A DNA stretch of 34,975 nt from assembly GCA_028691695.1 (NCBI GenBank), contig JAQUYU010000006.1, forward strand, positions 1 to 34,975, written 5' to 3'. Within the stretch, counting starts at the first letter, position 1; every line of letters begins with the position of its first letter. The DNA comes from Sphaerochaetaceae bacterium. GTDB taxonomy: Bacteria > Spirochaetota > Spirochaetia > Sphaerochaetales > Sphaerochaetaceae. The notes under the pieces are model-generated. The model did not search any database. It was given only the letters and a program-made list of their open reading frames with translations, and was not told the DNA's origin. Positions 6,118 through 6,366 of the stretch are shown one piece after another. The position numbers and the translations under genes were made by a program.

Positions 6118-6366
6118 TCACAGCTTCTTGATGACATCCTCTGAAAGACCGGTGAGTGCACTGATCTTCTCAATCGGGACATTCAAGCCCTGGAGACCTT
6201 TAGCCATTCTCATGCGCTCTTCCTGCCGGCCTTCGGCTCTGCCCTCGGCTCTGCCTTCGGCTCTGCCCTCGGCTCTGCCCTCGACTCTGCCCTCGGCTCT
6301 GCCCTCGACTCTGCCCTCGACTCTATTCTTATAGCCGACGGATCTGATTTTCTCTTCCAGTATCAT
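6118..6366 (-). CDS. Candidate internally translated C-terminal small Rpn protein (82 aa, RpnS-like)
   Basis: In-frame ATG at 6366 (MILEEKIRSVGYKNRVEGR...) preceded by AGGAGG (6378-6373) with 6-nt spacing inside the long Rpn ORF. Confidence 0.55.
   Translation of the reverse strand: MILEEKIRSVGYKNRVEGRVEGRAEGRVEGRAEGRAEGRAEGRAEGRQEERMRMAKGLQGLNVPIEKISALTGLSEDVIKKL

Follow-up and report, generated by a model that had tools for sequence, protein, structure and literature searches.

A predicted RpnL/RpnS toxin-antitoxin gene with an eight-unit tandem array in a Sphaerochaetaceae bacterium

A minus-strand gene in the 34,975-nucleotide stretch of Sphaerochaetaceae DNA analyzed here (the window) carries eight near-identical 12-bp units in the part that encodes the C-terminus of its product. 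What does such an array contribute to the protein, and does its copy number decide which partners recognize each other, as proposed in a preliminary description that placed the units in the C-terminal helix of an Rpn protein?

The array and the gene that carries it

TRF identified a sole tandem array in the window at 6229-6324 (period 12, 8.0 copies, 92% matches, no indels), which confirms the eight in-frame units of the preliminary description; the span of 6231-6326 given there is the identical array read in another phase, and the codon-aligned span is 6226-6321 on the minus strand. Read in codon phase, the array encodes eight (V/A)EGR units, GxxxG-type helix repeats at residues 245-276, in the order VEGR VEGR AEGR VEGR AEGR AEGR AEGR AEGR, and a genome-wide look found this pattern at a single place. 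The two variable positions per unit that had been described are present as GTC/GCC and GAG/GAA; unit 8 differs further in ending on CGG instead of AGA.

Same-amino-acid codon pairs within the array were identical in 78 cases, compared with 32.6 expected under independent codon choice (maximum of 60 in 2000 draws). This codon uniformity is far above independent choice, and the array therefore arose by duplication of DNA. Its DNA homogeneity is the highest among 184 distinct ORFs of the family, and because codon likeness is combined with the strongest DNA-level array in the family, the growth of the eight-unit array by duplication is recent. Along the array the variants follow one another as A A B A B C B C' (where A is GTC GAG, B is GCC GAG, and C is GCC GAA), which suggests that some of the growth steps were two-unit duplications.

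The array belongs to the rpn gene (RpnL, the full-length nuclease), a minus-strand ORF of 311 codons at 6118-7053 with an intact reading frame. Its product matches the Rpn family (COG5464/TIGR01784) over the full length and above the curated cut-off (TIGR01784, residues 26-310, 5.6e-29, 101.8 bits versus a cut-off of 52.1), with a further match to PF12784 at residues 30-142 (7.1e-10). The latter, together with the family alignment, delimits a PD-(D/E)XK nuclease core (6628-6966, minus strand), in which the residues D83, E96, and Q98 are present and nearly invariant across 31 sequences. Translation of RpnL appears more likely to start at TTG 7026 (302 aa) than at ATG 7053 (311 aa), since GGAGGT precedes the former at 7033-7038 and no Shine-Dalgarno (SD) sequence precedes the latter.

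A predicted antitoxin start inside the gene

Six nucleotides before an internal ATG at 6366, the Arg-Arg codons AGG AGG write the SD sequence AGGAGG (6373-6378, minus strand, from the SD scan), the longest match before any in-frame internal ATG, GTG, or TTG, the start region excepted. The predicted product of this start is an RpnS protein of 82 aa (6118-6366, minus strand), for which the internal SD and ATG, the family statistics, and an orphan ORF argue together. On sequence evidence, the gene thus has the internal ribosome-binding site and start that give a C-terminal small protein in RpnL/RpnS genes, and we infer that RpnS is translated from it. The repeats start 15 residues past the predicted RpnS Met, within the 8-20 residues at which four-residue repeats begin past the small-protein Met in known Rpn genes (PMC10327210); the distance from the internal start to the first repeat Gly, which clusters at 11-19 residues in the family, is 17 residues here. 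A search for an internal promoter in rpn gave one weak sigma-70-like site (6523-6494), at chance level.

The internal ATGs of 133 full-length relatives were compared with synonymous-codon shuffles, an ATG being counted when its SD match reached 5 or more. A tail ATG with such a match was present in 81 of the 133 relatives versus 45.2 ± 4.2 in the shuffles (maximum of 60 in 200 shuffles), and in 54 versus 33.6 ± 4.1 after the set had been thinned to 99 less similar sequences. The nuclease body of the 133 relatives showed no excess (25 versus 22.0 ± 3.0). These counts indicate that the internal ribosome site is under selection in the family. Most of the close relatives write the internal SD with Trp-Arg codons (TGG AGG), whereas in the spirochaete gene Trp is replaced by Phe and the SD is rebuilt by AGG AGG in Phe-Arg-Arg codons; a relic in the congener G001 carries AGGAGT at the same site. 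The nucleotide signal has been retained through the amino-acid change.

We consider it probable that 6118-7053 is an Rpn toxin-antitoxin gene-within-a-gene, encoding RpnL and a predicted nested RpnS that have the repeat-bearing helix in common. The gene could instead be a decaying, non-functional Rpn relic with the repeats as debris, since G001 contains rpn only as several frame-broken copies (L065, L066, L067, and L068, the longest piece being about 54% identical). In the window, however, the frame is intact and the conserved core residues and both ribosome-binding sites are present, which makes decay highly improbable. No rpn gene was found in the congener G002, and the contrast between G001 and G002 suggests that gain and decay of rpn are fast in the genus.

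The same genome contains an orphan RpnS-type ORF without the nuclease (L064, G000:C105:6046-6348, minus strand, 135 codons) that is 73% identical in DNA to the C-terminal region of the C8 rpn gene. Its homology to the latter sets in 30 nt before the equivalent internal ATG, a cut placed just ahead of the internal ribosome site; it retains AAGGAGG, and its repeats are shorter and different (IATG IAKG KAEG against IEKG-type).

The repeat helix and known recognition systems

The AlphaFold model of the monomer, built with 31 sequences, has one continuous helix (residues 223-289) that includes the internal Met and the entire repeat array, followed by two short helices (294-301 and 305-310); its confidence is low across the repeats (pLDDT 44-55), and the model obtained without an alignment was poor (pLDDT 41). 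Profile and model relate the C-terminal module (6121-6225, minus strand), which comprises the end of the long helix and the two short helices, to RpnAS of E. coli, as seen in crystal structure 7th0, the match of the alignment profile to chain 7th0_A over the tail being borderline (E = 0.016). RpnAS is a three-helix bundle that dimerizes via its long first helix, where the repeats insert (PMC10327210), and the repeats of the spirochaete gene are predicted to lie in the first helix of RpnS. The earlier reading of the array as Rpn C-terminal repeats is supported by the Rpn profiles, the internal ribosome-binding site and ATG, and this predicted helix.

Other structural matches were set aside. The single-sequence PDB matches to ribosomal S10 reflect low-complexity EGR and were dismissed as composition, the PDB match 8vd6 ('CAP repeat') covers the short tail helices alone, and the best match in a fold search of the model, McrC (E = 4.7e-3), had low TM-scores and was not counted as evidence.

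By homology, RpnS would pair with the identical helix in RpnL and so block the nuclease. Each 12-bp repeat would add four residues, or about one turn, of GxxxG-type helix, and the repeat number would determine how long the RpnL:RpnS contact is and in which register it forms. Because the array is common to both proteins, any change in it would affect RpnL and RpnS alike; through slippage or recombination the pair would thus stay matched to itself while becoming mismatched to other alleles or paralogs. In E. coli RpnC, a repeat added to one partner abolishes inhibition and recognition, and its addition to both restores them (PMC10327210). The incompatibility of alleles by copy number that had been proposed is therefore experimentally established for E. 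coli RpnC; for the spirochaete gene, both the neutralization of RpnL by RpnS and the specificity role of the repeats would follow by analogy. The idea of recognition by repeat number is sound, being right in kind and largely already published (PMC10327210).

The repeats might alternatively serve as a ruler in RpnL that spaces nuclease subunits or DNA-contact modules, with RpnS matching secondary. Their location within one continuous predicted helix suits such a role, and the EcoR124 precedent is cited by the E. coli Rpn authors themselves. However, a single extra repeat in E. coli RpnC broke RpnS recognition in the matched-pair swap, and the repeats fall inside the predicted RpnS, which is without the nuclease; we regard a ruler as unlikely.

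The preferred reading, a repeat helix that matches RpnL with RpnS, places the gene alongside the E. coli and C. difficile RpnL/RpnS systems (Zhong et al., 2023, PMC10327210; PDB 7th0), which likewise have a PD-(D/E)XK nuclease, an internal ribosome-binding site and start, a C-terminal small protein, and, in the first long helix, repeats of 4 aa that combine one hydrophobic residue with charged residues or glycine. In contrast to these systems, the distantly related spirochaete gene has eight near-identical 12-bp units, and its small protein is a prediction. Its membership in the RpnL/RpnS kind is well supported, and the recognition device is one already known in other bacteria. The 4-aa TAEL repeats of EcoR124I/II HsdS likewise change specificity by their number, which sets the length of the DNA spacer, whereas the target expected here, from PMC10327210, is RpnL:RpnS matching. 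The AxxxG(xxxG)mxxxA repeats of FliH also have Gly at every fourth residue, charged residues between, and a variable number (Trost and Moore, 2009, PMC2674601); they have been proposed to mediate helix-helix dimerization and were described as extremely rare elsewhere (PMC2674601). The FliH models scored 1.1e-8 on the rpn repeat region, far below the FliH cut-off, and were taken to reflect a kind of repeat in common and not homology; the proteins have no whole-protein homology, and the resemblance is one of working, not of membership. The term GxxxG is absent from the text of the Rpn preprint.

Repeat number among relatives and genomic setting

At least three Gly at four-residue spacing were found in 118 of 208 ORFs, compared with about 3% in shuffled tails, and the longest run was 13. 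In close relatives, taken as pairs sharing at least 88% head identity, tail gaps measured 4 (58 cases), 8 (25), 12 (8), 16 (4), 20 (3), and 32 (1) residues, besides 13 other gaps of 2-10 aa and 29 of a single residue in the same pairs, with head gaps nearly absent; as the pairs overlap, these counts are not independent events. The tail-length changes between close relatives are thus mostly multiples of 4 aa. An invariant repeat number across relatives, named in the preliminary description as grounds for abandoning its proposal, is not what the family shows: the number differs, mostly in 4-aa steps, among close relatives and paralogs. The gene itself is known from one strain and one allele, for which we infer hypervariability and RpnL-RpnS specificity.

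Length variation of this kind could also be produced by a near-neutral coding minisatellite, in which frame-keeping 12-bp slippage is tolerated and copy number has no function. Such slippage yields 4-aa steps without selection, the array is both homogeneous at the DNA level and recent, and the repeat runs are short or absent in many relatives. Against this, DNA-diverged arrays in relatives keep Gly at every fourth residue across 10-13 units, the array keeps its position with respect to the internal start, and repeat number matters in E. coli; we judge a functionless array to be quite unlikely and retain recognition by repeat number.

Tail-block length differed in 17 of 18 same-genome paralog pairs (13 genomes, heads at least 93% identical), a comparison subject to contig-edge effects and to strain mixtures in metagenome assemblies; in the 18th pair, the last 30 residues are different (20% identity). 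The length difference in the 17 pairs was usually a multiple of four, with one exception each of 1+3, 4+7, and 12+1; for example, L148/L149 are one repeat apart, L185/L075 are eight apart, and L270/L266 differ by one repeat with an identical tail. When pairs with heads at least 95% identical were compared, equal repeat length was found in none of 13 within-genome and 3 of 10 between-genome pairs (p = 0.07, the pairs not being independent), and between-genome pairs often differ in repeat length too. The paralog lengths are consistent with insulation of duplicates, the within/between contrast is only suggestive, and fast array mutation alone could explain the differences. We tentatively propose, as a possibility rather than an expectation, that repeat-number change insulates duplicated Rpn genes in one genome: gain or loss of 12 bp, or exchange of the last ~35 residues, would make an RpnL/RpnS pair orthogonal at once and let multi-copy sets coexist, and downstream RpnS-only copies would be antitoxins of earlier specificities.

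RpnS-only ORFs (L224, L022, L016, L031, L142, L145, and others) lie directly downstream of many full-length rpn genes. Of the 23 found, about six stand behind frame-broken or truncated rpn genes; some of the remainder copy the upstream tail, and the tails of L224, L022, L016, and L031 are clearly different, like displaced antitoxin cassettes. Tail swapping occurs beside repeat change, with near-identical heads and different last ~35 residues in one genome (L130/L131/L133, L109/L111/L116, and L021/L018/L022).

These results extend the RpnL/RpnS sequence signature to this spirochaete and to many relatives in Spirochaetota and Clostridia. New here are the codon-level case for a selected internal antitoxin start in the clade, the orphan antitoxin-only ORF in the same genome, the quantized tail lengths, and the paralog-insulation hypothesis. 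Through the within-genome pairs, what was one experiment in E. coli becomes a hypothesis of general scope that can be tested, on the separation of duplicated toxin-antitoxin genes, and the near-perfect eight-unit array would lend itself to a clean series of constructs differing in copy number.

The scanned neighbors of rpn are metabolic or SSB genes, with no defence island; the PADLOC defence-gene models did not match the Rpn protein, and the phage and viral contigs contained no relative of it. Because no defence model matched and the neighbors are metabolic or SSB genes, an anti-phage role in this organism would be argued from homology. In G001, a kinase gene beside ptsI is followed by a thioredoxin and a URO-D-like gene without rpn (L167 and L170 versus window 5361-9478), and in G002 the thioredoxin is near the kinase, again without rpn. 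The exact empty site is not reconstructable from these two congeners, as their SSB gene sits elsewhere. In the window, SSB and rpn occupy the kinase-side interval, a placement within 5361-9478 that points to a local rearrangement.
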